A stretch of DNA of 59,811 nt from Roseofilum acuticapitatum BLCC-M154 (GTDB lineage Bacteria > Cyanobacteriota > Cyanobacteriia > Cyanobacteriales > Desertifilaceae). Location of the stretch: positions 1 through 59,811 of the forward strand of contig NZ_JAQOSP010000036.1 of NCBI RefSeq assembly GCF_030068475.1, read 5' to 3'. Positions 11,801-27,618 of the stretch are shown piece by piece; within the stretch, counting starts at the first letter, position 1, and every line of letters begins with the position of its first letter. The notes under the pieces were generated by a model. It was given only the letters and a program-made list of their open reading frames with translations, was not told where the DNA came from and did not search any database. The position numbers and the translations under genes were made by a program.

Positions 11801-11956
11801 TTAAGAAGGCAGAACCGGGGGAGGGGAGCATGCACCACTTTCAGGATTGGGTAGCAACGGACCGCTTTCTGTTTCTCGTACCGCAATTTTATTCAGCTCG
11901 GGGGCAAGCCAGATTTTTTTTGCCGGTTGTGGTTGGTTGTTTGGATTTGTATTCAT
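11801..11956 (-). CDS. Lasso peptide precursor A2
   Basis: A 51-residue peptide, ATG start, with a good AAGGAG Shine-Dalgarno nine bases upstream (11966-11972, read on the minus strand). The leader (residues 1-30) has WLAPELNKIA, matching the RRE-binding core Y/WxxPxLxxxG/A, and a Thr at 29, the usual -2 position. Cleavage after Glu30 gives a 21-residue core starting SGPLLPNPE, so the Ser1 amine and Glu9 side chain are set for a nine-residue macrolactam ring. The tail SGACSPPPVLPS ends in Ser, the residue phosphorylated in paeninodin-type peptides. It lies 39 bases after cyclase C1. The spacing from Trp to Thr is two residues shorter than usual. Confidence 0.82.
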   Translation of the reverse strand: MNTNPNNQPQPAKKIWLAPELNKIAVRETESGPLLPNPESGACSPPPVLPS

Positions 11957-11995
11957 GGTATTGCACTCCTTTCTTAGATAAAGTGACGAAACTAA

Positions 11996-13897
11996 TTAAA
12001 CTCTAAAGCAATTGACACAGGCTAGGGTAATCAACAGGACTTCTACATCCCGTTTCATTTCTTTGGTTTGCGATATCACCTCTTCTAACTTGTTTAAGTC
12101 TACATATTTAGCTGCTGGACGATCGCCCTCCTGCAAGCCAAGCCGATCGCTCAAAACAGGTAGAGCAGGTAGCCATACGCGATCGAGGACAGCAAAAGCA
12201 GCCGCTTCTCGTTTAGAGCGATTCCATTGTACTGCGGCTGGCAATATACCTTCAACTGCTCTACGCATCAAGGATCGTCCGCATCCCTGCTGTACGAACT
12301 GCTCTGGGGGCGTACCCAGACCAAACTCCAGGATGCGTCGGTCTAGCAGGGGGTAAGAATAGAGCAATCCCTGGCGATCGCCATTGACCGCCCAGGCTTC
12401 TATCCGTTTGGTCAAATGCCCGTTATTTAGCCAACGCCACTGATTTGCTTGCACCCCCGGACTCTCCTGCAAGGATGGCCCGCGCATAGCCAAAACTGCC
12501 TCTTCATGTTGCTGGGCAAAGCTGGGATTGATGCAGGTTATGGGGTAGCAACTGCTTCTACTGTTCCGTCCGTACCGCCAAGACCAGATCGCTTCGGGAA
12601 CCAGGGGCAGTAAGACTTTCTTGTAGGCGACACGAGCATCTAATCTGAGAGCGTACAATAGATTAGCGCCCTCCTGTTGGGACAAGCAACGAATTTCTTG
12701 ATGCAGTTTCCCCCAGCGTCCCCGCAAAAATAGCTCCGACCAAAATCCCCAGCCATGACCCGTAATCGCTTCGTCTCCACCCCAGCCCGAAAGCATGATG
12801 CGAACGTCGTCTTGGGCGGCTTGCTCTTGGACGAGTTGCTCGCGAAACATCATCTCTGTTGGGTCGCGGCTGAAGTCTCGCATATAAGTTCTGACCACAT
12901 CCTCCACCTTTAAGTCGATATATTGGCATTCAATCCCTTCTTGTTGACAAACGGCCTGGATTAACCGGCGCTCGTCATCGGGGCATTCACCTGTGGCTGG
13001 GGGCGGCGGAGACCAGGAATAGGCGGTGGGGGTTTTGCCTTGCTGACGGAGCAATTGGGCGGCGATCGCCGTTACGCTAGAGGAATCTAACCCACCACTG
13101 AGGTGGCAGCCTACCGGGAAAGGAGTCCGAATTCGGCACTGCACTGCCTCAAAAAGTAGCTCGCGTAACTGCTCTGCATAAGCTTCATCCGAGGGTAGAC
13201 GTACTTCTCTTACATTATTGAGAGACCAGTATTGAGTCAGTTGGCTAGTCTTTGCAGTCACCGTCAATTGATGAGCTGGCGGCAATTTGACAATATCGGC
13301 CAAAAAGGTCTGGCGCTTTTCTGGAAAATAGGTGTCTTCCTGCAAATAAGCGGCTAGTAAAGGTTCGTTGGGGCGGTGCGGAACCTCCGAGCGAGCCAGC
13401 ACCCCCTCGATATCGGAAGCAAAGATAAAGCTGCGGTTATCTTCGTAGTAATAAAAGGGCTTGAAGCCCATATGGTCTCGACCGCAAAAGAGGATCTGCT
13501 GCTTTCGATCCCAGAGGACAAAAGCAAATTCGCCGATTAGCCGACTTACACAGTCTCGCCCCCATTTTTCGTAAGCCAATAAAATCAGAATACTGTCGGG
13601 TAGGGTTCGAGCCTCGGCAGATGCCACATTTAGGGCTGCCCAGAGTTCCTGCCGATTATCGATGCGGGCATCAGCAGTGATCACCCAATTGGGATTCTTG
13701 GGATGGGCAATGGGCAATTTTTCGTGCAGGGATTCGGGAGTGGAGTGTAACATCAAGTGACCCAATCCCACGGAATTTTCACACCAAGAGCCTTGACCAT
13801 CTTTACCCCAAGCTGCCATAGATCTTCGCATCGGCTCGATAGTCTCTGAGGTAACTGGCGTACCGTCTTTATAAAAAATGCCGTAGATTCCGCTCAA
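11996..13897 (-). CDS. Lasso macrolactam synthetase C1 (asparagine-synthase-like)
   Basis: About 633 residues. A TTG start at 13897 gives MSGIYGIF, matching its paralogue, with AGGGAG about ten bases upstream; an upstream TTG at 13906 is too close to that site. The N-terminal half is a glutaminase-like fold but lacks the catalytic Cys after Met, as in lasso C proteins. The synthetase half has the PP-loop SGGLDSSSV near 264 that adenylates the ring-forming acid side chain. It follows B2 by 26 bases and precedes precursor A2. The order K, B1, B2, C, A supports a lasso role over plain asparagine synthesis. Confidence 0.87.
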   Translation of the reverse strand: MSGIYGIFYKDGTPVTSETIEPMRRSMAAWGKDGQGSWCENSVGLGHLMLHSTPESLHEKLPIAHPKNPNWVITADARIDNRQELWAALNVASAEARTLPDSILILLAYEKWGRDCVSRLIGEFAFVLWDRKQQILFCGRDHMGFKPFYYYEDNRSFIFASDIEGVLARSEVPHRPNEPLLAAYLQEDTYFPEKRQTFLADIVKLPPAHQLTVTAKTSQLTQYWSLNNVREVRLPSDEAYAEQLRELLFEAVQCRIRTPFPVGCHLSGGLDSSSVTAIAAQLLRQQGKTPTAYSWSPPPPATGECPDDERRLIQAVCQQEGIECQYIDLKVEDVVRTYMRDFSRDPTEMMFREQLVQEQAAQDDVRIMLSGWGGDEAITGHGWGFWSELFLRGRWGKLHQEIRCLSQQEGANLLYALRLDARVAYKKVLLPLVPEAIWSWRYGRNSRSSCYPITCINPSFAQQHEEAVLAMRGPSLQESPGVQANQWRWLNNGHLTKRIEAWAVNGDRQGLLYSYPLLDRRILEFGLGTPPEQFVQQGCGRSLMRRAVEGILPAAVQWNRSKREAAAFAVLDRVWLPALPVLSDRLGLQEGDRPAAKYVDLNKLEEVISQTKEMKRDVEVLLITLACVNCFRV

Positions 13898-13923
13898 TGT
13901 TGGCAATCTCCCTAGAGAATTCT

Positions 13924-14385
13924 TTAAGCACCAAAAAAAGAAATGACTTTAAATTGAGATTCAATTGTGCCGCCAGTGATGATTTCCTGGCCGACTCTGA
14001 GCCAGGCATGGGCTTCGAGTTGGTCGGCATTTTTTTTCAGCCCCAGATAGAGGGTACTGGCAATTTTGCGCCGCCGCAACATTATTTTACCGGCGATCGC
14101 CTGTGCCAAACAGTTGCTGCGCCAAGGGGTATAGCGGCTGCTGGTGGCGATCGCCCAAGCGATCTGCCCAACTACTGCCTGTTCTGCTGGCTGAATGCCG
14201 TCTTCTGAGGTTTCTTGGTTTAGACCCCCCAAATAGGGGGCGATCCACCGAAAGGGAAAAAGTAGCACACAGCCCCGCGCTAAACCGAGCCAGAGAAACG
14301 CCTCTAGGAAAGCTATTTTTCTGTGGCTCGGTTGTTGCCAAAATAGAGCGGCTTTATTCTTCAATAATGCGAACCAGTTTTTCAT
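13924..14385 (-). CDS. Lasso leader peptidase B2 (transglutaminase-like)
   Basis: About 153 residues from ATG at 14385 (MKNWFALLKN), overlapping the 3' end of B1 by about 30 bases. The family is the lasso B2 cysteine protease that removes the leader. The catalytic Cys92 sits in WRSNCLAQA and His126 in EAHAWLRVG. I see no clear Asp about 12 residues after the His; Gly or Glu stands there, so the third member of the triad is uncertain. A hydrophobic stretch near 30-50 may touch the membrane. This is the only B2 in the window and may serve both precursors. Confidence 0.85.
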   Translation of the reverse strand: MKNWFALLKNKAALFWQQPSHRKIAFLEAFLWLGLARGCVLLFPFRWIAPYLGGLNQETSEDGIQPAEQAVVGQIAWAIATSSRYTPWRSNCLAQAIAGKIMLRRRKIASTLYLGLKKNADQLEAHAWLRVGQEIITGGTIESQFKVISFFGA

Positions 14386-14650
14386 CGATGATCTTCTGGA
14401 TAAAAGGCAATACATCTTGCTGACAGGTTTGAGCGTCTACGTCAAACTCCTCTTGTAGGAGGCCGCAGAGTTCGGCCACACTCAAAGGTTGATCCAGTAG
14501 CTCCCAGATGCGCGTGCCGACTGGGTTCGTACCGTAGTAGCTATCGCTCTCTATGTTCATCATCACCAGTTCGTCCTCCAGATTGGAGGCCAAAATATCT
14601 GGGTTGCGAACAATTTTTTGAGTCAGAGTAATGGTTTGATTTAATCCCAT
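14354..14650 (-). CDS. Lasso leader-binding protein B1 (PqqD/RRE family)
   Basis: About 98 residues. ATG at 14650 is preferred because AAGGTG lies eight bases upstream; the longer TTG reading from 14674 lacks this. The PqqD-like fold is evident: a beta hairpin ELVMMNIESDSYYGTNPVGTRIW, then a winged-helix part LSVAELCGLLQEEFDVDAQTC, and a C-terminal helix. Such RRE proteins bind the leader motif YxxPxLxxxG and bring the precursor to B2. It is the only B1 in the window. It overlaps B2, implying coupled translation. Confidence 0.88.
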   Translation of the reverse strand: MGLNQTITLTQKIVRNPDILASNLEDELVMMNIESDSYYGTNPVGTRIWELLDQPLSVAELCGLLQEEFDVDAQTCQQDVLPFIQKIIDEKLVRIIEE

Positions 14651-14705
14651 AAAAAACACCTTATTTTTATTCAAACTCTAAAGAAACCCGGTTTCTAGCA
14701 TAGCC

Positions 14706-14850
14706 ATACAGCAGTTTGCGCTATGAGTGAGGGACATTTCGATCCCCCCAACCCCCCTTAAAAAAGGGGGCAGCAAAAGTCCCCCTTTTCAAGGGGGATT
14801 TAGGGGGATCAAAACCTACTGTCCATCAATACAGCGCAAAGGGCCATATC
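14706..14850. repeat. Composite interspersed repeat, copy 2
   Basis: Begins TACAGCAGTTTGCGCT, passes through GGGACATTTCGATCCCCCC and G/C-rich arms around AAAAAAGGGGG, and ends with CCTACTGTCCATCAATAC, paralleling 1-165. It lies between B1 and the lasso kinase K1 and runs into K1: the last dozen K1 codons (MALCAVLMDSRF) and its stop are repeat-like sequence. Confidence 0.75.
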
Positions 14851-15715
14851 TTCTTCCAGACATTCGATCACTTGGCCGAGCGAAAAATAACTTTGCGGTC
14901 GAACCAGCCGTTTGACCTGGATAGTGCCGAGGACTTGAGAAATTTGTTGGAAAACGTTTTCTCTCACGCCCAAAGCTTTAATAAATTCTACTCGGAATAC
15001 ATTCTTCATCAATGCCTCAAACTGTTCCACTTTGGTTAAAGATATCACTGAAACACCGGGCACATCGCCAGGGTCTAGCCAATAGATGCCATACAATTTG
15101 CTGGGATGGCTGGCCAGCAACTCTGGCAAATATTTCGTATATTTGTCTTCTTTGTGCCACACTCGTTGCAGGGTCTGGCGATCGTAGTTTAGCTGTTGCA
15201 AGGTGTCATTCCACAAGCGAATTTGAGCTAAGGCAGGACAAACTTGCGGCCCTTGATCTGGAGAACAGTCAATTACGCATAAGTCATCGGCTAAAATCCG
15301 ATAACCGGCTTTTAGGAATCCAGCCGCTAAGGTGGATTTGCCTGCACCCGAACGACCCAGAAATATACATAGCACCGCGATCGCTCTCAACAGCGCTGGC
15401 ATGGAGGATTAAACGACCCCGTTGGTGCAGCAAGGAGCCGAAACCTTGGGAGAAAAGATAGAGACGTATGAGTTCTTCGGGACAACCGGCAGCAGGATCG
15501 ATGATAATCTCTTTGCCATCAAGCACTAAATATTTGGCAATCTCATCCACTTTTAGCAGATAAGCTCCTGGTTTGATTTGACTGAACCAGTCCTCATAGA
15601 CCGGTTCTATGAGGCGATCGCTCACAGGGCCGACAGAAATGCGGACATCAAAATCGGAGTCATTGCCAGAGTAGGGGCGCAACTCAGGACAGACTAACTC
15701 AGAAGCAATATTCAA
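14809..15715 (-). pseudogene. Frameshifted lasso kinase K1 (HPr-kinase-like)
   Basis: Two reading frames together give one HPr-kinase-like protein. The first (15715-15284) runs through GRLILHASAVESDRGAMYI and then leaves the family. The second (ATG at 15402, ends 14809) resumes with IFLGRSGAGKSTLAAGFLKAG, the Walker A loop, and LADDLCVID. A one-base change near 15345-15365 joins them. No good start is seen: the first frame opens with TTG, and open sequence upstream runs to a repeat at 15787. The 3' end lies in another repeat. Its intact relative is at 21131. It looks like decay, unless the base is an assembly error. Confidence 0.8.
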
Positions 15716-15786
15716 ACCACAAGCCGTATATCGATAGAGAGTGTTAAATTCTTTGATAGCAATCCGCTTGTTGAATGTGATGGCTG

Positions 15787-15819
15787 AGAAACCCGGTTTT
15801 TTGAAAAAACCGGGTTTCT
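15787..15819. repeat. 33-bp inverted repeat (GAAACCCGGTTT family), copy 2
   Basis: AGAAACCCGGTTTTTT and its reverse complement around a central G. It is the same family as 11731-11763. It sits upstream of the lasso kinase remnant, where that gene's true start would be expected, and upstream of the Nif11 peptide on the other strand. Confidence 0.85.
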
Positions 15820-15908
15820 TGCTCCGGCAATATCTGCGCTATCCATTTTTACCTACCTCTCCATTTTCTTGGGTTCTCCAGGACTTTTACCATACCGAAA
15901 GGAAGTTC

Positions 15909-16127
15909 ATGTCTGTCCAAAATGCTTTACAATTTATACAACAGTTTCGTGCAGATAAACAGCTCAAAACGCTACTTTTAGCCACCTGTAAAAGTCCGGA
16001 CTTAGAAAGCTTTGTTAACCTGGGTTCTAACCTTGGACTCCATTTCACAGTTGCCGAACTGGAACAGGCGCACAAACATGACTGGGCAATGCGTGGGTTG
16101 CTCTATTCACAAGACAACTGGCAATGA
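15909..16127 (+). CDS. Nif11-type leader peptide protein
   Basis: A 72-residue ORF from ATG at 15909, with AGGAAG nearby at 15898-15904. The sequence MSVQNALQFIQQFRADKQL, then SFVNLGSNLGLHFTVAELEQ, matches the Nif11 domain: a helix with spaced hydrophobics followed by G-x-FT-x-x-EL. In cyanobacteria such domains serve as RiPP leader peptides. There is no double-glycine site and almost no core after the domain (only about 20 residues), so it may be a stand-alone Nif11 protein or a precursor that lost its core. It is the only plus-strand gene within the island and converges on the P450 gene. Confidence 0.72.
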   Translation: MSVQNALQFIQQFRADKQLKTLLLATCKSPDLESFVNLGSNLGLHFTVAELEQAHKHDWAMRGLLYSQDNWQ

Positions 16128-17339: not shown

Positions 17340-17349
17340 CTTTTATTCC

Positions 17350-18114
17350 TCAATCTGCAACAATATCGATAAGGGGAAATGACAGAGACCAGGTTACTGG
17401 CGATGCAAGGGCAGCATTGACATAACCGAGAAAGTAGTTAAGCTGTCCAGGAGGCTTATTTTCCCCATAGACCCGATCTAAATTTTCCTTCCAGAGGACA
17501 AACGTTCGCAGTGCTTGAAATCGCCTGCTTTGGGTAAATTGAATTTTCCAGCCTGCTTCCTCCACGTATTGCAGTAATTCCGAAACCGAACACATCAGCA
17601 TCGACCCCCCAAACGTTTCCCTCTCTCCCAAGTAGTGGTCTCCAACGCAGTGGACTGAGATAATCATACGGGGAGCTAAGGAGCGCAGTTGTCGCAGCAG
17701 TTTCAGCTTGTCGCGAATATGGGAGAGGATTTCAATGCCAAAAATCAGGTCATACTTGCCCCCCAACTCATCTCGTTCCAAGTTTTTGTAGGATGCATTG
17801 AAACCCTGACTGCGGCAATAGTCTGCCTGGGTTTCGCTGAAAGAGATACCTTCTACAGAGCAATGACATTCGGTAATTAACATCTTGGTGACTCCTCCCC
17901 AACCGCAGCCAATATCTAATACATGGGAACCGGTCGTAATGTAGGGATAAAAATTCCGAATCGTTTGTTTCAAACCGGTTTCTAAATCTTCAGAACCACG
18001 AAAAAAACCACAATGGTACAGTAATTCCTCACCAATCACCTTTTGCCATTCGGCAACGGGTACGCTGCCATAAAAATCATTTAGATCGAGGTATTCTTCG
18101 AGATTGATGTTCAT
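17350..18114 (-). CDS. SAM-dependent methyltransferase
   Basis: About 254 residues from ATG at 18114, just four bases after the upstream stop; a TTG 30 bases earlier would overlap that gene. The class I SAM-binding motif I is HVLDIGCGWGGVT, with the acidic end of strand 2 in VEGISFS and motif IV near DLIFGIEILSH. The layout resembles the cyclopropane-synthase/small-molecule methyltransferase group. The substrate is unknown. It is tightly packed between the unknown 350-residue protein and the P450, so the three probably act together. Confidence 0.85.
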   Translation of the reverse strand: MNINLEEYLDLNDFYGSVPVAEWQKVIGEELLYHCGFFRGSEDLETGLKQTIRNFYPYITTGSHVLDIGCGWGGVTKMLITECHCSVEGISFSETQADYCRSQGFNASYKNLERDELGGKYDLIFGIEILSHIRDKLKLLRQLRSLAPRMIISVHCVGDHYLGERETFGGSMLMCSVSELLQYVEEAGWKIQFTQSRRFQALRTFVLWKENLDRVYGENKPPGQLNYFLGYVNAALASPVTWSLSFPLIDIVAD

Positions 18115-18118
18115 GATG

Positions 18119-19177
18119 TTATCCAGAGACAAACTTATGTTCAAACCAAAGATAGGCTTTAGCTTCTAGGGGAGATTGGGGACGGTAAACAAGTTTTAGG
18201 TGGCTTAATCGGCGATCGAAGAGAGTAAAGCACTCTTTCGACTGTAAAAGAGAAGCAACAATCAACTGACTGGGCCAAGATGCTTGAGCATTGACGGGAG
18301 TGGTTTGACCTGGCCAGGTTAACAATGCCTCTTGCTTTTCAGGCAAGCATAACCCTCGTTTGACTAAAAAATCTAAAAGCATAGCCCAGCGAGATTCATG
18401 AGGAGGCTGTCCGTGCAAAATACATTCTAATCCAATTTGGGGATAAATGAGCTGACCGACATCAAGACAGACGGTGAGGAGATCGACAAACTCTAACAAC
18501 TGTTTCATCAAAGCTTGCAGTTCCTGGGTGTCCTGTTGCCAGCCAATCTCTTGTAAGTAGTCTACGAGTGCATCGGGTTGCAAATGTTTGACATTCACTC
18601 GTAAAGCAGGCGAGTTTCGAGAGAGCATTACACCAATATGGCTGACAAATACCCCATGGGGACAAGCTCTAAAGCACCGTTCCAGATTATCTTGCCACTT
18701 GTGCCAAACCGAACAATCTAGGAGTAAGTTTAGGGATTTTGTGGCAATGGCATAGGTATCGACAGTTGGATTCTTTTCTTGGGGAAAGCCGACAAAAATG
18801 GCGGGGAGAGGTAGAAAATCTGATGAGTTGTCGCGATCGTATTCCAACCAAATTTCTGGAATTTCATGAAGAGATAATTCCCATTGTGCCAGAAAATTCT
18901 GTAATTGCGACCATCTAGCATCCGTCGGTATGCTCTGGCCTGTAGCAATAGCCATTGCCTGTTGCAGCGATTTTAACTGACTCTCATCCCGGATAATACA
19001 TTGTTGAAAATCCACCTGGGAAGTATCGGAACTCAGGCGACATTCAAACCCCCCTCGGAGAATCGGAGCCAGATTATCCGTTAATGCTTTTAATCCCCAG
19101 ATTGCATCGGGTGCAACTAATTTTGGCACGAGATGGGGCAATAGTATATCGATAGACTCTGTTAGAGGTGAGTGCAT
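18119..19177 (-). CDS. Hypothetical protein of the lasso island
   Basis: About 352 residues from ATG at 19177 (MHSPLTESID), preferred over an upstream TTG at 19210 that overlaps the Uma2 gene. I do not recognise the family. It is soluble, without signal peptide, alpha/beta in look, with notable stretches VFVSHIGVMLSRNSPALRVN, GLECILHGQPPHESRW, and LLDFLVKRGLCLPEKQEALL. Four bases separate it from the methyltransferase. No catalytic motif is obvious. Its place with a methyltransferase and a P450 suggests a biosynthetic enzyme or substrate-binding partner, but the sequence does not say which. Confidence 0.7.
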   Translation of the reverse strand: MHSPLTESIDILLPHLVPKLVAPDAIWGLKALTDNLAPILRGGFECRLSSDTSQVDFQQCIIRDESQLKSLQQAMAIATGQSIPTDARWSQLQNFLAQWELSLHEIPEIWLEYDRDNSSDFLPLPAIFVGFPQEKNPTVDTYAIATKSLNLLLDCSVWHKWQDNLERCFRACPHGVFVSHIGVMLSRNSPALRVNVKHLQPDALVDYLQEIGWQQDTQELQALMKQLLEFVDLLTVCLDVGQLIYPQIGLECILHGQPPHESRWAMLLDFLVKRGLCLPEKQEALLTWPGQTTPVNAQASWPSQLIVASLLQSKECFTLFDRRLSHLKLVYRPQSPLEAKAYLWFEHKFVSG

Positions 19178-19199
19178 GGTTTTCTTTGGGGTAGTAATA

Positions 19200-19760
19200 T
19201 CAAACCGCAAAAACGTCCGATACAGAAATTACAATATCCGGAAATGCGAAGGGAGAAACAACTTCTGTTACTGAAAATTCTTGCCTTTCTTGATAGTCAC
19301 TATCTTGAGGAGCGCGATAAACAATTAAGGTTTTATTCTGAATATCTACAATCCAATATTCGGGTATAGTTTCGCGGGCATAGAGTTCTTTTTTCGCTGA
19401 AATATCATAATTTCGAGTTGCTTTAGAGACTTCAACAACTAGCTCGATATTCTCAGGAAAGGGGTGATGGTCGATGTATTGCGATCGCGGCAGTTTAGCC
19501 ACTACGATATCTGGTTCTGGCTCCGATTGAGATAATGTAATCGGTTTAGCTTCTCGAACATAGCCTCGTCCTGCGGTTAGCCTCTCCAGTATTTTCGCTA
19601 AGTTTTCTTCAAAATAAGCATGTTCCGTGCCTTGAGGAGACATTTCTACGATCGCTCCGTTAATTAATTCTACTCGGCGTTCTTTAAATAGACCGATCGC
19701 GACCATTTGATGGTACTCTTCCACGCTGAACTTGGCAATTTCTGGAGCTATCGCGGTCAT
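19200..19760 (-). CDS. Uma2 family (DUF820) endonuclease-like protein
   Basis: A 186-residue protein of the very common cyanobacterial Uma2 family, with a PD-(D/E)XK restriction-like fold. Typical phrases are FSVEEYHQMVAIGLF, RVELINGAIVEMSPQG, the catalytic run EPDIVV, then LVVEVSKATRNYD and KKELYARETIPEYWIVD. Its substrates are unknown. Many cyanobacterial genomes carry dozens of copies, often near mobile or decaying regions, so its presence need not be part of the lasso pathway. Confidence 0.9.
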   Translation of the reverse strand: MTAIAPEIAKFSVEEYHQMVAIGLFKERRVELINGAIVEMSPQGTEHAYFEENLAKILERLTAGRGYVREAKPITLSQSEPEPDIVVAKLPRSQYIDHHPFPENIELVVEVSKATRNYDISAKKELYARETIPEYWIVDIQNKTLIVYRAPQDSDYQERQEFSVTEVVSPFAFPDIVISVSDVFAV

Positions 19761-19819
19761 CTTATCTTCCTCAATCTATTGTTCTTAGGAGCAGCCAGCT
19801 CACCCATAAAAAATCAAAA

Positions 19820-20611
19820 TTACTCAGTGCGACGAACCAAGAATACCTTGCCATAGTTATCACCGGGAAAGTAACTATAACTGCCCATTTCAGTCGCAGT
19901 AAACTCGCGATTCTCTTGCAGAAATTCATCAAAAGCACGTTTCTCGCCTTTACCTCGATCTGCTAACCCTTGAAAATTCCATTCATCGAAAAAGATAATA
20001 GTTTTATCAAGGATGAGAGGCTTACAAAAATTGAGAGCCTCCTTTGCTGATGCATATAAATCGACATCAATCATGATCAAACTTGCCTTGCGTAACTTAT
20101 GTTTCTGGATGAGGTCAGAATTTAGCGTGTCAGAGTATAACCCTTTGATTAAACTACATCGCGACCAATCAATGTTCTTAGCACTCAGAGACTCTACAAC
20201 ATAATTATAATCAATGGCAAAAAAACCTTGCGGCCATATTCCTTCTTCGTCATAGGGTAAGCCTTCAAAAGAATCAAATCCAAAAAGGCGAACGTGATTC
20301 AGCTTCGCCTTCAGTAATGCACTGTACATCAAAGAGAACGAAGTTCCCTGACAAACTCCAAATTCTAAATAGTCGCCAATATTTTCAGCCCCTAGTGCTT
20401 CTTGTAAATATTTAATCGCTGCCTTGTATTGCGGAAGCAGCTCGCGCTCGTTGACTAGTAACCCCAACTTGGGAAAACCCAATTGAGGAAAGAATTTACA
20501 CATTACCCAACGATAACGCCTCCTTATATCCCCAGCCATTTGATAACGGATGTACCTGTAGGGAAATTTTAAAGTATCAATCAGCGTCATAATTTCTGTC
20601 GATCGCGTCAT
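19820..20611 (-). CDS. TylF/MycF-type class I methyltransferase
   Basis: A 263-residue protein resembling macrocin O-methyltransferase (TylF) relatives. SAM-binding features are YLEFGVCQGTSFSLMYSA, RLFGFDSFEGLP and, later, ASLIMIDVDLYASAKEAL followed by KTIIFFDEWNF. The paired aspartates of IDVDLY and the Asp-Glu-Trp of FFDEWNF are the metal-binding type residues of this family. It is often found with sugar or peptide tailoring genes. The start at 20611 overlaps a fragmentary ORF; ATG at 20590 is a possible alternative. Target unknown; a tailoring role is inferred from the island. Confidence 0.82.
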   Translation of the reverse strand: MTRSTEIMTLIDTLKFPYRYIRYQMAGDIRRRYRWVMCKFFPQLGFPKLGLLVNERELLPQYKAAIKYLQEALGAENIGDYLEFGVCQGTSFSLMYSALLKAKLNHVRLFGFDSFEGLPYDEEGIWPQGFFAIDYNYVVESLSAKNIDWSRCSLIKGLYSDTLNSDLIQKHKLRKASLIMIDVDLYASAKEALNFCKPLILDKTIIFFDEWNFQGLADRGKGEKRAFDEFLQENREFTATEMGSYSYFPGDNYGKVFLVRRTE

Positions 20612-20678
20612 CTAGAGTTAGAATGAGTTTTCGTTGCGCTCTCGTCTCTGAATCAGGTATTTTCAGTTTGCTATTCAT
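20577..20678 (-). pseudogene. Short duplicate of the start of the 65-aa ORF upstream
   Basis: A 33-codon reading frame beginning MNSKLKIPDSETRAQR, closely like the start MNSQPQIPDPETRTRS of the gene at 20941-21138, including the preceding TCATGAATAGC. After that the similarity fades and the frame closes inside the methyltransferase start. It is probably a remnant of a small tandem duplication and may even carry the promoter-side region of the methyltransferase gene. Confidence 0.45.
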
Positions 20679-20713
20679 GACAGATTCCAATTGTCTCTAA
20701 TGTTGGGCAAAAA

Positions 20714-20896
20714 CTAGACATCTTTTTCTAGAGGTGGGATTTTATCGCTCTCAATGGTGATAACTCTTCCATCTTGCCAAATACTAATGGATTCGCCCAG
20801 TTTCCGATGTTTCTCGATCGCCTCGGCAATAGCTTGTTTCACGCCAGCATCAATTTTCTGATGTAGGGGAGAAAGAGTTGGATTTTTAGGATTCAT
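20714..20896 (-). CDS. Small conserved protein, 60 aa
   Basis: ATG at 20896 is chosen because GGAG lies seven bases upstream; a longer reading from 20944 lacks such a site. The protein has a helical first half (LHQKIDAGVKQAIAEAIEKH) and then SISIWQDGRVITIES, a beta turn resembling small cyanobacterial proteins that often sit beside a partner gene. It follows the 65-residue ORF by 44 bases. I do not know a function. A toxin-antitoxin-like pair is conceivable but no known family is matched. Confidence 0.6.
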   Translation of the reverse strand: MNPKNPTLSPLHQKIDAGVKQAIAEAIEKHRKLGESISIWQDGRVITIESDKIPPLEKDV

Positions 20897-20940
20897 CGAT
20901 ATCTCCAATAATTGCACTCCAGGTTTCAGATGGAATGACC

Positions 20941-21138
20941 TCATTTAGTTTCTAGTAAATTTCTGGCTCGCTGTCGTCGCTCAACATTAATCGGACTATT
21001 GCGAATATCAGCTTCGGCAAGGGCGATCGCTTCATCGAGCAGCATATTCACATCATCAAACATTAGACAGATCTCTCGCCAGCGAGCAATAGACCTTGTT
21101 CTTGTCTCCGGATCGGGGATTTGGGGTTGGCTATTCAT
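20941..21138 (-). CDS. Hypothetical protein, 65 aa
   Basis: A 65-residue protein beginning MNSQPQIPDPETRTRS, helical and acidic (DDVNMLLDEAIALAEADIRN), ending with a basic segment ERRQRARNLLETK. Its start overlaps the end of the lasso kinase gene by eight bases, so it is probably translationally coupled to the kinase. A degenerate copy of its beginning lies at 20577-20678. I do not recognise the family and give no function. Confidence 0.6.
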   Translation of the reverse strand: MNSQPQIPDPETRTRSIARWREICLMFDDVNMLLDEAIALAEADIRNSPINVERRQRARNLLETK

Positions 21139-22189
21139 GAGTACATTTCTCTGACTTCGTTATACGAGCCGCATCTGCTGTAATCGCGTCGCACAATTGA
21201 GGCAATGCGTCCAAACTATCGCGACGAGTCACGTTTCGCAGGGGCACTCTCTTCGCGACTTGGCTCAGAGCCACAAACTCTTGGGCTTGCTTATCTGTAT
21301 CTAATTTTAAGAAGGTTGCCGATCGCTGCTTCATCAAGGTTACCACTGCCATGGCTGGAGGAATAGACTCAATGACCGGTGCTGCCAATCCCGGTTGCCG
21401 TTCTCCCAGAACGTAGATAGCAGCTAAAGGAAGGGGTTCCTTCTGAAATTGCCACGGGCTTTGATTGGCTACAGGTTCATCACTGCTATAAGTCAGATCG
21501 ATAAAGCGCTTTTCGGATAAGCGCAGCACGCGCGCCAAGCCTTCTTCCGAGCCGTAGAGGGCGTTAACCGACTCCGGCCACAGTCGCAGACGGGGATAGC
21601 CGGGGTGGACGAGGAAATGATCCGATGATTCGGTCAGAAGAGCGACATCATCGGAAAGAATGGGGTATCCTTGTCCGGCAAGAGCGGCTGCTGTTGTCGA
21701 TTTACCCGCTCCTGAATCGCCCAAAATCGCGATCGCCTGCTCACCCACTGCCAACACGCAACCATGCAGACAAACCTTTCCCTGCAACCGCAGGGCCAAC
21801 TTCAACACTGACCCCAGCAACAACACCGTCACATCTTCTATAATCGAATTCGTCCAATTGGGCGAACTAATGCGACTGCCATCGGCTTCGAGCTGGAGAT
21901 CGATTGGCTCCATGTATTCGTTACCGCGATACCAAAAGTTGAAATAGCTGCTTCCATCTGCACGAGAGCGTTTTTCAATCTGAGAGTCAAAATTAGCAGG
22001 CCCCTGTGGATGGAAGGGAACCCTGCCAATGGCGGAATCGGATTCGGGAGCATCTTTCAAATCCACCCAGATATCGACAGACATATCATTATCGCAAGCC
22101 AATAGCCCCGGCAAGGATTGATTGCTCGCCAGGGTTAAGCCGTAAACTTGGTAGGTGAAGATTTGACCACCGTTACGGGGAATGCTCAT
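21131..22189 (-). CDS. Lasso peptide kinase K2 (HPr-kinase-like)
   Basis: A 352-residue protein with the HPr kinase C-terminal fold: CLHGCVLAVGEQAIAILGDS, Walker A GDSGAGKSTTAAAL near 155-165, and ILSDDVALL with the paired aspartates. In lasso clusters of the paeninodin type this family phosphorylates the side-chain hydroxyl of the precursor's C-terminal Ser. The upstream precursor A1 ends in Ser, as does A2. It lies 144 bases after A1 and its 3' end overlaps the next small gene. It is intact, unlike K1, and may serve both peptides. Confidence 0.84.
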   Translation of the reverse strand: MSIPRNGGQIFTYQVYGLTLASNQSLPGLLACDNDMSVDIWVDLKDAPESDSAIGRVPFHPQGPANFDSQIEKRSRADGSSYFNFWYRGNEYMEPIDLQLEADGSRISSPNWTNSIIEDVTVLLLGSVLKLALRLQGKVCLHGCVLAVGEQAIAILGDSGAGKSTTAAALAGQGYPILSDDVALLTESSDHFLVHPGYPRLRLWPESVNALYGSEEGLARVLRLSEKRFIDLTYSSDEPVANQSPWQFQKEPLPLAAIYVLGERQPGLAAPVIESIPPAMAVVTLMKQRSATFLKLDTDKQAQEFVALSQVAKRVPLRNVTRRDSLDALPQLCDAITADAARITKSEKCTHE

Positions 22190-22333
22190 AGGAGATTGAG
22201 AAGAGATTCGACTTTGGGTTCGGGGTCGATCGCGATCGCCTGGCTCCTAGAGCTTCGTTTTTGGCGATCGCTCAACCCCTAAGCTTGAAATATTGGGTCG
22301 ATGAGACTAACTGATCTCATTTTCCTGGATTCT

Positions 22334-22507
22334 TTACGATCCAGCAGCAACATAGCTATTCGGAAATGCACCGCCATCAAAACTGCTATTGCCAGCAAAA
22401 GGCGAGGTTAGCGTCAGATCGCTGACACTCCCAAACTTCTTCAGTTTGGGAGTATGGTATGGACGGTTGTTGGCAAGATTTGCTTGATTAGAATCGGTTG
22501 CAGACAT
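22334..22507 (-). CDS. Lasso-type precursor peptide A1
   Basis: A 57-residue peptide, ATG at 22507, between cyclase C2 and kinase K2. Residues 17-32, YHTPKLKKFGSVSDLT, match the lasso leader motif YxxPxLxxxGxxxxxT exactly, including spacing. The expected cleavage two residues after Thr32 gives a core beginning TSPFAGNSSFD whose only acidic residue is Asp44, at position 11, beyond the usual 7-9. Cutting elsewhere (before Ala38) would give a seven-residue ring but breaks the Thr rule. The C terminus is Ser57. So the leader is convincing, the ring is not. No strong Shine-Dalgarno is seen. Confidence 0.8.
   Translation of the reverse strand: MSATDSNQANLANNRPYHTPKLKKFGSVSDLTLTSPFAGNSSFDGGAFPNSYVAAGS
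22427..22453 (-). other. Perfect hairpin inside the A1 leader codons
   Basis: In the message, ACTCCCAAACT, loop GAAGA, AGTTTGGGAGT: eleven paired bases with no mismatch. It exactly covers nine codons for TPKLKKFGS, the RRE-binding part of the leader. It may be chance from the codon pattern, or may affect translation or mRNA stability. Confidence 0.6.
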
Positions 22508-22582
22508 GGTAGTTTACTTCAGATGGGGTTAACGCAAGAGTTTTCACCAGCAATTATAGTTGATGATACTCCACAATGGACA

Positions 22583-24415
22583 TTAATCAAGGTTTTGGTG
22601 GTGCAGCCAATAGGCTAATTGCAGGGCTGGAATCGTCTGGTTGTAGTTCGTAGGGGTGAGTTCGGCTAAAGTCTTCCATCTGAATAACAGAGCTTCTGGA
22701 TTAATGTAGGGAGTCAGAGTGGGCAAAGTTGCCAATTCCACTATCCAGGGTTGAATCCCTCGCTGCTGCATGAGGTTGTAATGGGGAAATCCTCTCAGGG
22801 GTGTTTTGGGTCGCTCTCGCACGGAATCTGGCAACAGACCTCGCATCGCTTCCCGCAGCAAGAATTTATTCTTAAACCAAGGTTCTGGTGGAACTGAGAG
22901 TAGGTAGAGTACCAGAGATACATCAAAAAAGGGATAGCGAACTTTAACCGGAAACCCACTAAACCCCGGATCTCCCCAAGCAAAAATATTCGACCATAAA
23001 GGAGCCGTTTCCATCCCATAGCGTTCGAGTTCCGGTGAAGCGGTTAATCTCTCTTGCAGTCGTGCCTGCATTTGCATTCGTTCAGCAAACTCTGGGTTCA
23101 ACCAGTCGGGAAACTCCTTCTGTGGCGGCTTGCGGCCAGTAACGTTCGACTGTGGTTGTTGCCCACTTTGCCGCCACTGACGTAATCGAGTCCGCAACCG
23201 CACCCGCGCACGAAGCAAACGGATATAGTCCCGGATAGTATGCGGATTCTGTAGCGACTTACCCTGGGAAGAAGGTGGCGGATGAAATGCTGGATCGCCA
23301 CCAAACCCAGCCAGCAGTACCCGACTGTACCCGGCTACGCGGCGCATCGTTTCCAGTTCAGCAGTTTGGTTAGCAATGAGTAGGGGTTCGGGACAGAGAT
23401 ATTCGGAATTGTCCTCCGGAGCTTGCTGAATATAGTCTTCAGCCACGACGTACTCTATGGGGAAGCCGGCCATTTCGGCAACTTGGGTGGCATAGTCTCC
23501 TTCATCGTCGGGAATCAGATGTTGGTAAACAATGGCATATCCGCGAAAGTCAACAGGCGCACCCGTTTCGGTCATTAATTTATAAGCCGTGGCTGCAATA
23601 CTGGTGGAGTCCATTCCTCCACTTAAATGGGTTCCCGCACTGTTAGTCCGCAGTCGGTCTGCCACTGAGCGCTCGAATAACTCCCGAAAGTGTTCGATAT
23701 AGTCCTCTGGACGCTGATAATTGAGGTATTCCACCTCTTCAGGTAATTGCCAGTAACGCTGAATGCGAACTTGACCTTTGGAGTAAGTCAGGGTGTGAGC
23801 GGGAGGCAGCTTGTGGATATCGGCAAACGTGGTGGTCGCCCGATCCATATTCATGCTAAAGAGGAGGTAATCGGCGATCGCGCTCTCATTGAGCTTATCC
23901 GATACTCTAGGATGAAAGCGCACGGTATTCAGATGATTGCTAAACACCAGAGTTTGACCCATTTGTGCATAATAAAACGGAACAATCCCAAACTGGTCTC
24001 TAGCACAGAACAAGCGCTGCTGCTGACTATCCCAAATGGCAAACGCAAAATCTCCACTGAGTTGTTCTAAACAAGCATCTCCCCAAACCCAGTAGCCATG
24101 CAACACCAGATCAACATCAGGTGCATCGTTCTCTAGATTGCGTCCACAAGCACGCAAGCGGTCAATTAGCTCCTGACGGCGATCCAAACGGATATCCCCA
24201 GTAATCCAAACTTTTCCATTTAAACCGAGAGGTTGCTGTTCATGTTCCGATTCCCAAGTCGTCCGCAAGAGAGCATGACCCAAACCCACATAACCCTCAC
24301 TCCAGATATTCTGAGCATCAGGAGCTTGAGGTCTCATCAAATCGGTCATTTGCTGTAAAAGATTGGCATCAATGGGTTGACCGTCCCCATTGACAATACC
24401 GACAATACCACTCAT
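22583..24415 (-). CDS. Lasso macrolactam synthetase C2 (asparagine-synthase-like)
   Basis: About 610 residues from ATG at 24415 (MSGIVGIVNGDG); a longer reading from 24448 has no good ribosome site. The glutaminase-like domain lacks the Cys nucleophile next to Met, so ammonia production from glutamine is not expected. The synthetase domain has the PP-loop SGGMDSTSI near 261 and AGFGGD further on. It precedes precursor A1 by 75 bases. It and C1 share the same architecture, so each may be matched to its adjacent precursor. Asparagine synthesis proper is less likely given the missing Cys and the context. Confidence 0.85.
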   Translation of the reverse strand: MSGIVGIVNGDGQPIDANLLQQMTDLMRPQAPDAQNIWSEGYVGLGHALLRTTWESEHEQQPLGLNGKVWITGDIRLDRRQELIDRLRACGRNLENDAPDVDLVLHGYWVWGDACLEQLSGDFAFAIWDSQQQRLFCARDQFGIVPFYYAQMGQTLVFSNHLNTVRFHPRVSDKLNESAIADYLLFSMNMDRATTTFADIHKLPPAHTLTYSKGQVRIQRYWQLPEEVEYLNYQRPEDYIEHFRELFERSVADRLRTNSAGTHLSGGMDSTSIAATAYKLMTETGAPVDFRGYAIVYQHLIPDDEGDYATQVAEMAGFPIEYVVAEDYIQQAPEDNSEYLCPEPLLIANQTAELETMRRVAGYSRVLLAGFGGDPAFHPPPSSQGKSLQNPHTIRDYIRLLRARVRLRTRLRQWRQSGQQPQSNVTGRKPPQKEFPDWLNPEFAERMQMQARLQERLTASPELERYGMETAPLWSNIFAWGDPGFSGFPVKVRYPFFDVSLVLYLLSVPPEPWFKNKFLLREAMRGLLPDSVRERPKTPLRGFPHYNLMQQRGIQPWIVELATLPTLTPYINPEALLFRWKTLAELTPTNYNQTIPALQLAYWLHHQNLD

Positions 24416-24467
24416 AAAGTCATATACTACGTTTGACTTGCTATTCAATTAAACCAAAATTTGTACC

Positions 24468-24587
24468 ATGTTCGATCAATTAACCCTGTTTGAGCGCTTA
24501 GGTGTCTTTATACTGATGCATGAAGTGAAGCCAGTGACAGCCGGTGAGAGGTTTACGATTGTCAGTTGGTTCTTGGGAGAAGAATAA
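24468..24587 (+). pseudogene. C-terminal fragment of a 2OG-Fe(II) oxygenase-like gene
   Basis: A 39-codon frame with the run LMHEVKPVTAGERFTIVSWF, the pattern of the last strands of prolyl-4-hydroxylase-type 2-oxoglutarate/iron oxygenases: the distal iron-binding His, then VxPVTxGxR, which holds the Arg that binds 2-oxoglutarate. The rest of the domain is absent, so it is probably the tail of a lost gene. It ends six bases before the chosen start of the ABC transporter, and its GGGAGAAG would provide that gene's ribosome site. Confidence 0.55.
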
Positions 24588-24592
24588 CACGG

Positions 24593-26386
24593 ATGCAATT
24601 TCAATTACAACTGCTCAAAAATCTGAAAAGAGCGATCGGTCTAGTTTGGCGAAGTACACCATTTTGGACATCTTGTACGATTATTCTCGTGTTTTTACAA
24701 GGTGTATTACCCTTAGCCTCCCTGTATTTAATGAAGTTACTCATCGATACCGTGACTGCGGGTATTGGCAATGGCATGTCTGCCTTGTATGATGTCCTGA
24801 AGATCGTTCTTCTGGTGGGAATAACGGCACTCATCACCAATCTTTTACGGTCTTTATCGGGATATGCGACCCAAGCTCAATCCCAGATTGTTACTGATTT
24901 TGTCAATGATATTTTACACAGTAAATCCGTTGAACTTGACTTAGAATATTACGAAAACGCTAATTTCTATAATTCCCTGCACCGCGCTCAACAAGAAGCC
25001 AGCTATCGACCGCAAAATTTACTGAATAATTTGCTACATTTGGCTCAAAATGCGATTTCTCTGGTGGCGATCGCCGGATTACTGCTTTCCCTCCATTGGT
25101 CGATTAGTATCGTCTTATTAGCCGCAGCACTTCCAGTCTTATTCGTTCGCTTACAGCAGAGTAAAATACTCTATCGACAGCAAAAAACTTGGACAGCAAA
25201 AGAACGTATGGCCTGGTACTTTCACTGGATGCTGACCATCGAAAGTTATGCCAAGGAAGTACGGCTATTCGATCTCGGAGCTTTATTCCGAAAACGCTAC
25301 CATAACCTAAGACAGGACATTCGTCAAGAAAAGTTAGCTCTAGCTCGAAAACGGGCGATCGCCGATTTTTTAACTCAACTCAGTGGAATTCTCGCTCTTT
25401 TTGCCGTATTTAGCCTTATTGCCTATCAAACCATTCAAGGACAGATCACCCTAGGAAGTTTGGTGATGTATTATCAAGGTTTTCAACGGGGACAGGCATT
25501 TTTAGGCCAACTTCTGTCTAGTTTTGCCGGTTTATACGAAAATAGTTTATTTCTCTCCCATCTTTACGAATTCCTGGACTTAAAACCCACGATTGCTAAT
25601 CCGATCTATCCCCAATGGGTTCCCCAACCCATCAAACAGAGCTTGAAATTTGAAAATGTTTCTTTTCAATATCCCCATAGCAGTCGTCCCTTACTCCAAA
25701 ACATTAATCTCACCATTCCCGCAGGAGAAACAGTTGCCTTAGTCGGAGAAAATGGAGCCGGAAAAACCACCTTAATTAAATTATTATGTCGCCTCTACGA
25801 TCCGACTTACGGACGAATTACCATTGATGGCATTGACTTACAGGAATTCAATGTTGTAGATTGGCGACGACAAATTAGTGTGGTATTTCAAGATTATGTC
25901 CGCTACAGTTTAACCGTTCGAGAAAATATTGGTTTGGGAAATATTGCCCACATGGACAATGATGCTGAGATTATCGAAGCCGCCCAAAAATCAGGAGCAG
26001 AGAAGGCAATTTATGGACTTCCTAAAGGCTATGATACCATGTTAGGAACCCAATTTGAGGAAGGAGAAGAATTGAGCATTGGGGAATGGCAAAAAGTAGC
26101 GATCGCTCGCGCCTTTTTGCGTCATGCTCAACTGCTAATTCTCGACGAACCTACCAGCGCACTCGATCCTGAAGCAGAATATGAAGTGTTTGAAAAATTT
26201 CGTCAACTGATTGAAGGAAAAACAGCTATTCTGATCAGCCATCGCTTGTCTACGGTTCGGATGGTCGATCGCATCTTTGTTTTAGAAAAAGGTAGAATTG
26301 TAGAAACGGGTTGCCACGAAGAGTTATTACAGCTCGGTGGAACTTATGCCCGTTTATTTTCTATTCAATCCAAGTATTATCAATAA
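24593..26386 (+). CDS. ABC exporter of the lasso island (type D)
   Basis: About 597 residues, ATG at 24593 (a TTG at 24566 would extend it by nine residues). It is a half-transporter: six membrane helices over residues 1-310, then a nucleotide-binding domain with Walker A GENGAGKTTLIKLL, a signature LSIGEWQKVAIARA that departs from LSGGQ, Walker B LLILDEPTSALD and switch ILISHRLST. It would act as a homodimer to export the mature peptide and give self-immunity. No C39 peptidase domain is present, in line with leader removal by B2. Divergent from C2, so a two-way promoter region lies between them. Confidence 0.9.
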   Translation: MQFQLQLLKNLKRAIGLVWRSTPFWTSCTIILVFLQGVLPLASLYLMKLLIDTVTAGIGNGMSALYDVLKIVLLVGITALITNLLRSLSGYATQAQSQIVTDFVNDILHSKSVELDLEYYENANFYNSLHRAQQEASYRPQNLLNNLLHLAQNAISLVAIAGLLLSLHWSISIVLLAAALPVLFVRLQQSKILYRQQKTWTAKERMAWYFHWMLTIESYAKEVRLFDLGALFRKRYHNLRQDIRQEKLALARKRAIADFLTQLSGILALFAVFSLIAYQTIQGQITLGSLVMYYQGFQRGQAFLGQLLSSFAGLYENSLFLSHLYEFLDLKPTIANPIYPQWVPQPIKQSLKFENVSFQYPHSSRPLLQNINLTIPAGETVALVGENGAGKTTLIKLLCRLYDPTYGRITIDGIDLQEFNVVDWRRQISVVFQDYVRYSLTVRENIGLGNIAHMDNDAEIIEAAQKSGAEKAIYGLPKGYDTMLGTQFEEGEELSIGEWQKVAIARAFLRHAQLLILDEPTSALDPEAEYEVFEKFRQLIEGKTAILISHRLSTVRMVDRIFVLEKGRIVETGCHEELLQLGGTYARLFSIQSKYYQ

Positions 26387-26388
26387 AA

Positions 26389-27618
26389 TTAACCTTTGAA
26401 TAAACTCCAGAGAGACGATATTTTTTCTTTGCTGATTTTATGTTTTCCGATTAACCTGACAATTCTCAGGGGATAATAGAGAAAAAACAAAAGATCGGGC
26501 AGGGGAAATAATTCTCGATCTCTTGCATTCACATGAAAAATAATCTTTAGCAAATATTGCAACCTACTCCATAAAGTGTTTTCTCTTCTCTCCCACAAAC
26601 TGATAATCAAGAAGATATAGCCATATTCCATGTTTTTATGATACATATACTCTTCATGTTGCCGGGCAACTTTCACCACTTCTGGAAACTGCTTCAGCTT
26701 TTCTGAAAATCTTTCAGGAAGGGAAATTTGTAGATAGGTTTGGGCGATCGCAATTCCTAGCAAAAATACGCGATCGTTCTCATCCGTTCCACATTGAGCG
26801 ATGACTTCCTGCCAATTTGCTTCTGGATAAGTCTGAATTAAGGCTCCAAAATCACAGATTCTTTTTAATGAATTCCAACTGTCTTTTGCTCCCTGGAGAT
26901 AACCAAGAGCGAGACAATTTTCTGGAGAGAATGTGGCGACTTCTTTACCCGAAAGAGATAAAGTTTGCAAGTTATCGAAAAACGATTCCGTCTCGATCTG
27001 TAGATAAAAGTTTTGTGGCGTTAACTTATAATGCAGGTCGATGTTGACTCGGCCATCGGGTAACACCATCTGAGCTTCTCCAATACTCTCTTCAAGTCCA
27101 CCAAAGTGTTTGTCATAATACCCTTGCTCGATCAGTACATCTTTAGCTTTAGAATAATCTTCAGGACGCACTAAAACATCCAAATCAGAAAACTCTCGAA
27201 GTCCCATATTGCCATAGGCTAAGTGTGCCCAGATTGGCCCCTTAAAAGGAATAGCTTGGATACTATGTTCTGCAAATAATTTAAGCACTTGTAACAATTT
27301 ATTGGTCAAAAATAAATTATACGTCATCCGTTTTTGAGCTTCGTTTTCTATTCTCTCAAATACAGATAAAGGCACACCCTCTGACTGATTTTGTTTTAGG
27401 GTTCGATAGAGCAGCATAAATACATTCTGCCTCACTGCATTTTGAACCAGAATATCCCAATCTAAATCAGTTCTTAGCAAATCTTGAACCTCAGAAGCCT
27501 TGGCTGAATTGAGTTGGTAACGAATACAGCACAACAGTAATTGATTTTCAGGCGAATACATTTTAGTGGAACTGGATATTGGCAAGTCTATAGATTGTTT
27601 TTCTATGTCTTTAATCAT
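26389..27618 (-). CDS. Nucleotidyltransferase family protein of the lasso island
   Basis: A 409-residue protein of the NTP_transf_5 type. The nucleotidyltransferase signature is in AIPFKGPIWAHLAYGNMGLR followed by EFSDLDVLVRPED, with the metal-binding Asp-x-Asp. Similar genes accompany HPr-kinase-like genes in phosphorylating lasso clusters; I recall PsmN of pseudomycoidin, tied to sugar addition on the phosphorylated peptide. Here it converges with the ABC exporter with only two bases between stops. Its product may add nucleotide or sugar groups to the C-terminal phospho-Ser, which is inference. Confidence 0.83.
   Translation of the reverse strand: MIKDIEKQSIDLPISSSTKMYSPENQLLLCCIRYQLNSAKASEVQDLLRTDLDWDILVQNAVRQNVFMLLYRTLKQNQSEGVPLSVFERIENEAQKRMTYNLFLTNKLLQVLKLFAEHSIQAIPFKGPIWAHLAYGNMGLREFSDLDVLVRPEDYSKAKDVLIEQGYYDKHFGGLEESIGEAQMVLPDGRVNIDLHYKLTPQNFYLQIETESFFDNLQTLSLSGKEVATFSPENCLALGYLQGAKDSWNSLKRICDFGALIQTYPEANWQEVIAQCGTDENDRVFLLGIAIAQTYLQISLPERFSEKLKQFPEVVKVARQHEEYMYHKNMEYGYIFLIISLWERRENTLWSRLQYLLKIIFHVNARDRELFPLPDLLFFLYYPLRIVRLIGKHKISKEKISSLWSLFKG

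Follow-up and report, generated by a model that had tools for sequence, protein, structure and literature searches.

Two adjoining lasso-peptide clusters around a shared exporter in Roseofilum acuticapitatum, one with a probable prenyltransferase and a core-less Nif11 protein

Does a locus with two lasso-peptide precursors, two cyclases and two kinase genes act as a single pathway, or does it bring together systems that are separate elsewhere? The question is raised by a lasso-peptide gene island at positions 11801-27618 of a 59,811-nucleotide stretch of Roseofilum acuticapitatum BLCC-M154 (hereafter the window), which is contig C36 of a 5.22 Mb draft genome, 99.84 % complete. A sequence-only reading had treated the island as one locus whose single pair of leader-processing genes, B1 and B2, serves both peptides. 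The lasso genes are real, but they form two adjoining clusters rather than one island. Cluster 1 comprises a precursor, a cyclase, B2, B1 and a kinase (A1-C1-B2-B1-K1) together with an ATP-binding cassette (ABC) exporter and a nucleotidyltransferase (NT), and two sister species have it by itself. Between K1 and the ABC gene lies cassette 2, an 8.7 kb block with the genes Nif11-P450-MT1-P7-K2-A2-C2; here P450 is a cytochrome P450, MT1 a methyltransferase and P7 a protein discussed at length below. With confidence a little above even, we favour the reading that two systems have been fused, the cassette 2 peptide being prenylated by P7 and losing its leader in trans.

Comparison within the genus, for which six genomes were sampled, separates the two units. 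In two of these genomes (G034 and G093), A1-C1-B2-B1-K1 leads on to the divergently oriented ABC gene and NT, and no intervening gene was found. Collinearity between the window and G034 holds as far as position 15869 (94 %) and resumes at 24608 (96 %); the block 15870-24607, from the Nif11 gene to C2, is missing from G034 as one unit, 232 unmatched bases standing in its place. The reverse arrangement, cassette 2 block present and cluster 1 absent, is seen in G057 and G076, and G127 has neither. G057 keeps the first 72 codons of K1 (96 %), running directly into the gene at window positions 8472-9440, an NAD-dependent epimerase as judged by eye. On the simplest view, G057 once had a composite of the kind seen here and lost cluster 1 from it by deletion, which would make the composite older than the present species. 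Overall, the exporter and nucleotidyltransferase stay in place while lasso cassettes beside them come and go.

The genes of cluster 1 all lie on the reverse strand. A1 (11801..11956) matches no family model and is recognised as a precursor by conservation alone, with relatives in the two sister species (L034, 83 %; L035, 77 %); its leader reads ..IWLAPELNKIAVRETE and its core would be SGPLLPNPESGACSPPPVLPS if Thr stands at position -2, with E9 as the ring acceptor and a C-terminal Ser. The cyclase C1 (11996..13906) matches PF00733 and reaches 512 bits with NF033535, below the cut-off of 525. The leader peptidase B2 (13924..14415) scores 100.9 bits with NF033537 (cut-off 33), and B1 (14354..14674), a PqqD-like RiPP recognition element (RRE; RiPP, ribosomally synthesised and post-translationally modified peptide), scores 80.2 bits with NF033536 (cut-off 80) and matches PF05402. 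The HprK-like kinase gene K1 (14809..15715) is intact in G034 and G093 (L034 and L035) and frameshifted here into two open reading frames (ORFs) in different frames, 15284-15715 and 14809-15402, with the break near the P-loop.

Cassette 2 begins with the Nif11-domain gene (15909..16127, forward strand, 72 aa), and its other genes lie on the reverse strand: P450 (16107..17339), MT1 (17350..18144), an S-adenosylmethionine (SAM) methyltransferase whose nearest models are CMAS and cyclopropane synthase, P7 (18119..19210, 363 aa), the HprK-like lasso kinase K2 (21131..22189), the precursor A2 (22334..22507) and the cyclase C2 (22583..24448; 372 bits with NF033535, again below the cut-off of 525). 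A2 combines a leader of the form Y..P.L.KFG.V..LTLT with a core holding DGG, Tyr and a C-terminal Ser, and passes the NCBI model lasso_leader_L3 (NF033521) at 19.3 against 19 bits. K2 is an open reading frame with the H, K and DD kinase motif. The ABC exporter (24566..26386, forward) and the PF14907 nucleotidyltransferase NT (26389..27618, reverse) flank both cluster types, although NT was not seen in the 19.9 kb of the G121 locus. AsnB carries an N-terminal Cys, which in both cyclases is replaced by Ser (C1 ..LSGIYGIF, C2 MSGIVGIV). The gene inventory of the sequence-only reading is thus largely borne out: two short precursors, two AsnB-like cyclases lacking the Cys nucleophile, one PqqD/RRE protein, one transglutaminase-like protease (B2), and, by family scans, an exporter, a nucleotidyltransferase, a P450 and two methyltransferases. 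Its two HprK-like kinases are both recognisable, at 30.9 and 20.2 bits, below the PF07475 cut-off of 33.3 and below the cut-off in their other family matches, but with K1 frameshifted they do not amount to two working kinases.

Cassette 2 recurs well beyond the genus. A search of 388 genomes from the order finds C2 orthologues (E < 1e-170) in seven, which represent five families. Close relatives of P7 (6/388 genomes, E < 1e-75) and of the P450 (6/147, E < 1e-100) all fall among these seven, and the core-less Nif11 protein, found in seven of the 31 genomes searched for it, marks exactly the same set, adjoining the P450 in every one. C2, A2, K2, P7, MT1 and the P450, with the Nif11 gene convergent to the P450, are together in G057, G076, G130, G121 and G277, where MT1 of G277 alone is a remnant. 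In the remaining genome of the seven, G066 (71 % complete), C2 is truncated, and a separate contig, which stops at the P450, carries P450-Nif11-B2-B1-ABC. A contig-collection search with C2 returned one locus, L003. Because they recur with C2 across genomes, the P450 (57-65 % identity in six relatives) and MT1 (intact in five of the six cassettes) belong to the cassette system. The sequence-only reading had named as one refuting condition that the P450 and methyltransferase genes are never conserved with the lasso genes; the P450 is, however, present in all six readable cassettes, and in G066 it stands beside Nif11-B2-B1. Its idea of a P450 acting with two methyltransferases holds for the P450 and MT1; the second methyltransferase, MT2, is not a core gene, being absent from the G057 cassette and lacking homologues (at E 1e-10) in all other loci compared. 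Ratios of nonsynonymous to synonymous substitution (dN/dS; dS was 0.8-1.7 in most pairs) are 0.14-0.17 for C2, 0.23-0.31 for the P450, 0.17-0.31 for P450, P7 and K2 together, 0.29-0.40 for Nif11 and 0.18-0.51 for MT1.

Individual cassettes have histories of their own. Between G057 and G076 (L065 and L066) the P450 and MT1 are 95 % and 92 % identical, but K2 only 59 % and Nif11 70 %, a mosaic divergence that suggests gene exchange within the cassette. The G076 cassette also holds a second P450 (L066 8643-9899), 44 % identical, with the heme motif FGYGMRSCMG and without the usual Thr pair of the I-helix. In G121, another natural composite lies directly beside cassette 2 (L063 11453-16508), made up of an extra cyclase, a kinase, a single B1, two B2 genes of which one is short, and a pair of nearly identical precursors.

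Which enzymes, then, remove the leader of A2? C2 is the only member of the B1/B2/C set within cassette 2, the B1 and B2 genes in cis belonging to cluster 1. A third lasso locus, on contig C132 (L091, 3126-10898), is ordered B1'-C3-A3-K3-methyltransferase-ABC-NT; its C3, A3, K3, ABC and NT genes are adjacent in all six genus genomes and B1' is with them in five. A peptidase gene, B2', lies on contig C152 (L041, 2232-2714) and has no lasso neighbours in five of the six genus genomes. The other genus members each have B2' too, which in G093 adjoins a second B1 (on C12, beside B2) and in G076 is on the same contig as B1'-C3, about 127 kb away. G057 and G076 each hold one PqqD and one B2 match, on contigs other than that of the cassette. 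B1' is 49-54 % and B2' 48-49 % identical to the B1 and B2 beside cassette 2 in G130, G121 and G277, and B2' is 64 % identical over 77 residues to the short second B2 of G121. Against the same cassette-side proteins, the window's B1 reaches 32-37 % and its B2 25-28 % over long alignments, with 40-44 % only over short stretches of 43-52 residues. In its leader (Y..P.L.KFG.V..LT), A2 is similar to A3 and to the second-cluster precursors of G121 (Y..P.L..YG.I..[IL]T), and is unlike A1 (IWLAPEL.KI.V.ET). Since G057 and G076 have their sole PqqD and B2 genes elsewhere, and given the kinship of B1'/B2' and the likeness of the A2 leader to that of A3, A2 is probably cleaved in trans by B1' and B2', so that leader recognition and cleavage would be supplied from another locus.

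This bears directly on the view that a single locus is at work, cluster 1 B1 and B2 processing both A1 and A2 while two kinases, the P450 and two methyltransferases act on the products. The two genes are open and physically adjoin the cassette here, and a B1/B2 pair also stands beside the cassette in G130, G277 and G121. The clusters, however, are found apart in relatives, their leaders differ (IWLAPELNKIAVRET in A1 vs YHTPKLKKFGSVSDLT in A2), protein kinship favours B1'/B2' for A2, and G057 and G076 manage without the cluster 1 pair; moreover, K1 is frameshifted and MT2 is in no other compared locus. We therefore consider shared processing, as the sequence-only reading proposed it, unlikely.

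P7 and the core-less Nif11 gene are additions to the gene list of that reading. P7 and its relatives gave only chance-level matches in Pfam, NCBIfam and PDB, and a search of viral contigs with P7 gave no match. Distant relatives (25-39 % identity) occur in other cyanobacteria, and a Nif11 gene lies within 5 kb in 22 of 35 P7 places (a count that leaves out the place in G401), against 0.29 expected by chance, or in 16 of 29 once the six cassettes are set aside. Several of the neighbouring Nif11 genes encode true precursors with GG sites, and five of 13 Nif11 peptides examined end in -K(I/A)KW. Residues 40-359 of P7 are 35 % identical to the product of L100:9036-10229, a gene that comes after a LanM gene and, about 400 bases upstream of it, a Nif11 precursor; this precursor has the core ACWRWSG and shares Leu66, Leu71, Trp80 and Trp82, all the positions given for MppE. 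As described in the available portion of PMC12715784, MppC is the alpha-beta-beta-alpha prenyltransferase of the Moorena producens mpp cluster, geranylates Trp82 of MppE, and docks the Nif11 leader through Phe340, with Trp at position 336. The L100 homologue has Phe at the position of MppC residue 340, and the other nine scanned ORFs of L100 received other assignments, none of them prenyltransferase-like; judged by sequence, the locus may be related to mpp without being the mpp cluster itself. Because this homologue directly follows an MppE-like precursor, and MppE's partner MppC is a prenyltransferase, we think it fairly probable that P7 is a member of the alpha-beta-beta-alpha, MppC-like RiPP prenyltransferases. 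The P7 family, which no model covers, is spread over RiPP clusters of cyanobacteria, and its members are probably prenyltransferases.

Other features of P7 relatives deserve mention in their own right. Four of them (L070, L097, L053 and L055) are fusions, three to a SAM methyltransferase (recognised by eye, one of them Pfam-confirmed) and one to a 2-oxoglutarate (2OG)-Fe(II) oxygenase (by Pfam). Nif11 precursors beside P7 relatives in L094, L095 and L098 have cores ending in -K(I/A)KW, a possible site of Trp prenylation, and look like an uncharted RiPP family; the L098 precursor adjoins genes for metallo-beta-lactamase (MBL)-fold, 2OG-oxygenase and alcohol dehydrogenase (ADH)-like proteins. 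A single weak phmmer match of the L100 homologue to MmcR in the PDB (E 0.042) was judged to be due to chance.

The Nif11 protein of the cassette has the domain and lacks a GG site and a core in all seven copies, and its tail keeps HKHDW in all seven. It is tempting to hypothesize that it is a detached leader acting in trans, docking on P7 and switching the prenyltransferase on, although we hold this only tentatively and at well under even confidence. The leader would be needed in trans because lasso closure requires A2's own leader to have been removed already. If true, cassette 2 would be a hybrid of lasso and Nif11 RiPP logics in which the leader function is freed from the substrate, a new principle, and would let one see, in a natural system, whether leader peptides can function as proteins of their own. 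Alternatively, P7, the P450 and MT1 may act on the Nif11 protein itself as a second RiPP precursor, with the tail HKHDW-MR-L-Y/H, the lasso genes being mere neighbours. P7 relatives elsewhere do adjoin Nif11 precursors with GG sites, some with a core Trp, and the tail is kept in all seven copies; yet this protein has no GG site or variable core, its tail is conserved, unlike a core, which would be expected to vary, and close P7 (388 genomes), Nif11 (31) and close P450 (147) genes are found only in genomes with C2. We regard this alternative, too, as unlikely.

The fused-systems reading can be extended to a biosynthetic scheme in which gene content, recurrence, insertion boundaries and the kinship of P7, B1' and B2' are taken from sequence and every chemical step is inferred. 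Two lasso systems would be joined around one shared exporter and nucleotidyltransferase, cluster 1 (A1, C1, B2, B1 and K1) making an ordinary lasso peptide, here with its kinase gene broken, and cassette 2 (Nif11, P450, MT1, P7, K2, A2 and C2) a heavily tailored one. K2 would phosphorylate the C-terminal Ser of A2, as in paeninodin, a phosphate that NT may extend, B1' of the third locus and the separately placed B2' would remove the leader in trans, and C2 would close the ring onto the Asp before GG. P7, as a soluble MppC-like prenyltransferase aided by the core-less Nif11 protein, would prenylate the peptide, perhaps on the tail Tyr, MT1 would methylate and the P450 oxidise the peptide or its prenyl group, and the ABC protein would export the product. 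A lasso product is a threaded macrolactam whose ring has 7-9 residues. The C-terminal Ser, a core DGG and a Tyr close to the C-terminus are common to all six A2 precursors; with Thr (Ala in G277) at -2 of a putative cleavage site, the Asp falls at core position 8 or 9. The C-terminal Ser is shared by all three A1 and all six A2 precursors and by none of the six A3, though the kinase K3 adjoins. Tyr is present in all six A2 cores vs none of the three A1 cores, a weak hint that it may be the tailored residue. Cyclopropane synthases methylate C=C bonds; as the best models for MT1 are such synthases and P7 relatives are fused to methyltransferases, one may speculate that MT1 methylates the prenyl group. 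The scheme points to lasso peptides combining phosphorylation, prenylation, oxidation and methylation.

Several observations weigh against this scheme, and the first group concerns P7. A PDB profile search with 12 P7 relatives found nothing up to E 10, and a single-sequence AlphaFold model of P7 reached a predicted local distance difference test (pLDDT) of 37, a fold that cannot be used. The cyanobactin prenyltransferase family PF19156 was tried and rejected, hhalign giving a probability of 0.2 % (15 P7 sequences vs 8 PF19156 proteins; 6 of the 14 loci considered were excluded because they were too long or could not be recovered). Thirteen of the 35 P7 places have no Nif11 gene within 5 kb. 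The L100 homologue has Leu at position 336, where MppC has Trp, so that the exact WxxxF (W336, F340) is not seen, and, since neither it matches a Pfam model nor any other model applied, calling it MppC rests on gene position, numbering and exclusion. In the cassettes themselves, P7 has Leu at the leader-docking position 340 in 6/6 cases, as against Phe in six of the nine other aligned rows. MppC requires its Nif11 leader in cis, according to the available text of PMC12715784, and A2 has none, carrying a short lasso leader instead. The second group concerns the substrate and the enzymes around it. Core Tyr is found in four of the six A3 precursors, although the third locus has no P7; this Tyr not confined to P7 clusters, together with Leu340, slightly weakens both the fused-systems reading as a whole and the trans-leader idea. 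With Thr or Ala at -2, four of the six A2 cores start with Pro, unusual as a ring-closing amine. In G277, MT1 has been destroyed by an internal deletion that leaves its N-terminal part (L064 11500-11830), and P7, which like the P450 is open there, has an insertion of about 53 residues. As for cleavage, the B1/B2 pair of G121 may serve its own second cluster, and the neighbouring B1 and B2 here (genome G000) could serve A2.

Two further explanations fare worse. The island could be decaying, a piece of recombination debris without a product, as the K1 frameshift, the K1 remnant in G057, the MT1 deletion in G277 and the truncated C2 of G066 might suggest; but A2, C2, K2, P7, MT1 and the P450 are all open here, dN/dS is well below 1, and seven genomes from five families keep the cassette wholly or partly, which makes decay very improbable. 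Equally improbable is that P7 is no prenyltransferase and that the P450 joins two aromatic residues of the A2 lasso in a biaryl link: biaryl-linked lasso peptides are in print (a reference in the consulted part of PMC13352647), the best NCBIfam model of the P450 is the cyclodipeptide-synthase-associated TIGR04538 (185 bits, below the cut-off of 500) and 5/6 A2 cores hold both Phe and Tyr, but only one aromatic residue is present in the G121 core, against two or more in each of the other five, and P7 and Nif11 are left unexplained.

The remaining ORFs of the island lie between P7 and K2, on the reverse strand. The ORF at 19200..19760, which we take to be Uma2-like, is not a core gene; an NCBIfam scan gave nothing above cut-off, and it is absent from L065 and has a 73 % homologue in L062. 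MT2 (19820..20611) is a TylF-like methyltransferase (PF05711), and the stretch 19180-20705 that holds these two genes is what the G057 cassette lacks. Two small ORFs, sm1 and sm2 (20714..21138), were seen only in the genus (84-97 % in L065; sm1 87 % in L066). Promoter-like sites number 32, against 22.5 (standard deviation 5.8) in shuffles, and terminator-like sites 14, against 16.4; these counts were not used for any conclusion.

Clusters of the pseudomycoidin/paeninodin type include an exporter. As far as the available text of PMC9266682 goes, they share with the present island separate B1 and B2 proteins, a C protein, an HprK-like kinase with H-K-D-D and a C-terminal Ser, and the pseudomycoidin cluster also has a nucleotidyltransferase beside the kinase, so the likeness to pseudomycoidin-type clusters that the sequence-only reading had noticed is supported. 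What differs here is the additional P450, methyltransferase, P7 and Nif11, the adjoining of two clusters and the probable processing in trans, in a system known from genes alone. A Roseofilum lasso cluster from coral black band disease likewise has a stand-alone RRE, B2, a 633-aa cyclase and ABC genes, and the lasso passages of PMC9967302, as available, mention no kinase, P450, prenyltransferase or Nif11. The mpp cluster shares a P7 homologue beside a Nif11 gene, but makes a lanthipeptide with its own Nif11 leader, according to the portion of PMC12715784 at hand, whereas in cassette 2 a lasso peptide would be the substrate, and Nif11 stands apart as a protein without a core. In the main text of the lasso review PMC13352647, so far as available, the terms P450, cyanobacteri and nucleotidyltransferase do not appear and no Nif11 protein in a lasso cluster is described; a literature search with partial coverage of genome-mining papers likewise yielded no published description of a lasso cluster that has a Nif11 protein or such a gene set. 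The accessible part of the same review reports prenylation, hydroxylation, phosphorylation, methylation-derived aspartimide and cross-linking each for lasso peptides. The single types of tailoring proposed here are thus already known in lasso peptides, whereas a Nif11 leader acting in trans would, if true, be a new principle.

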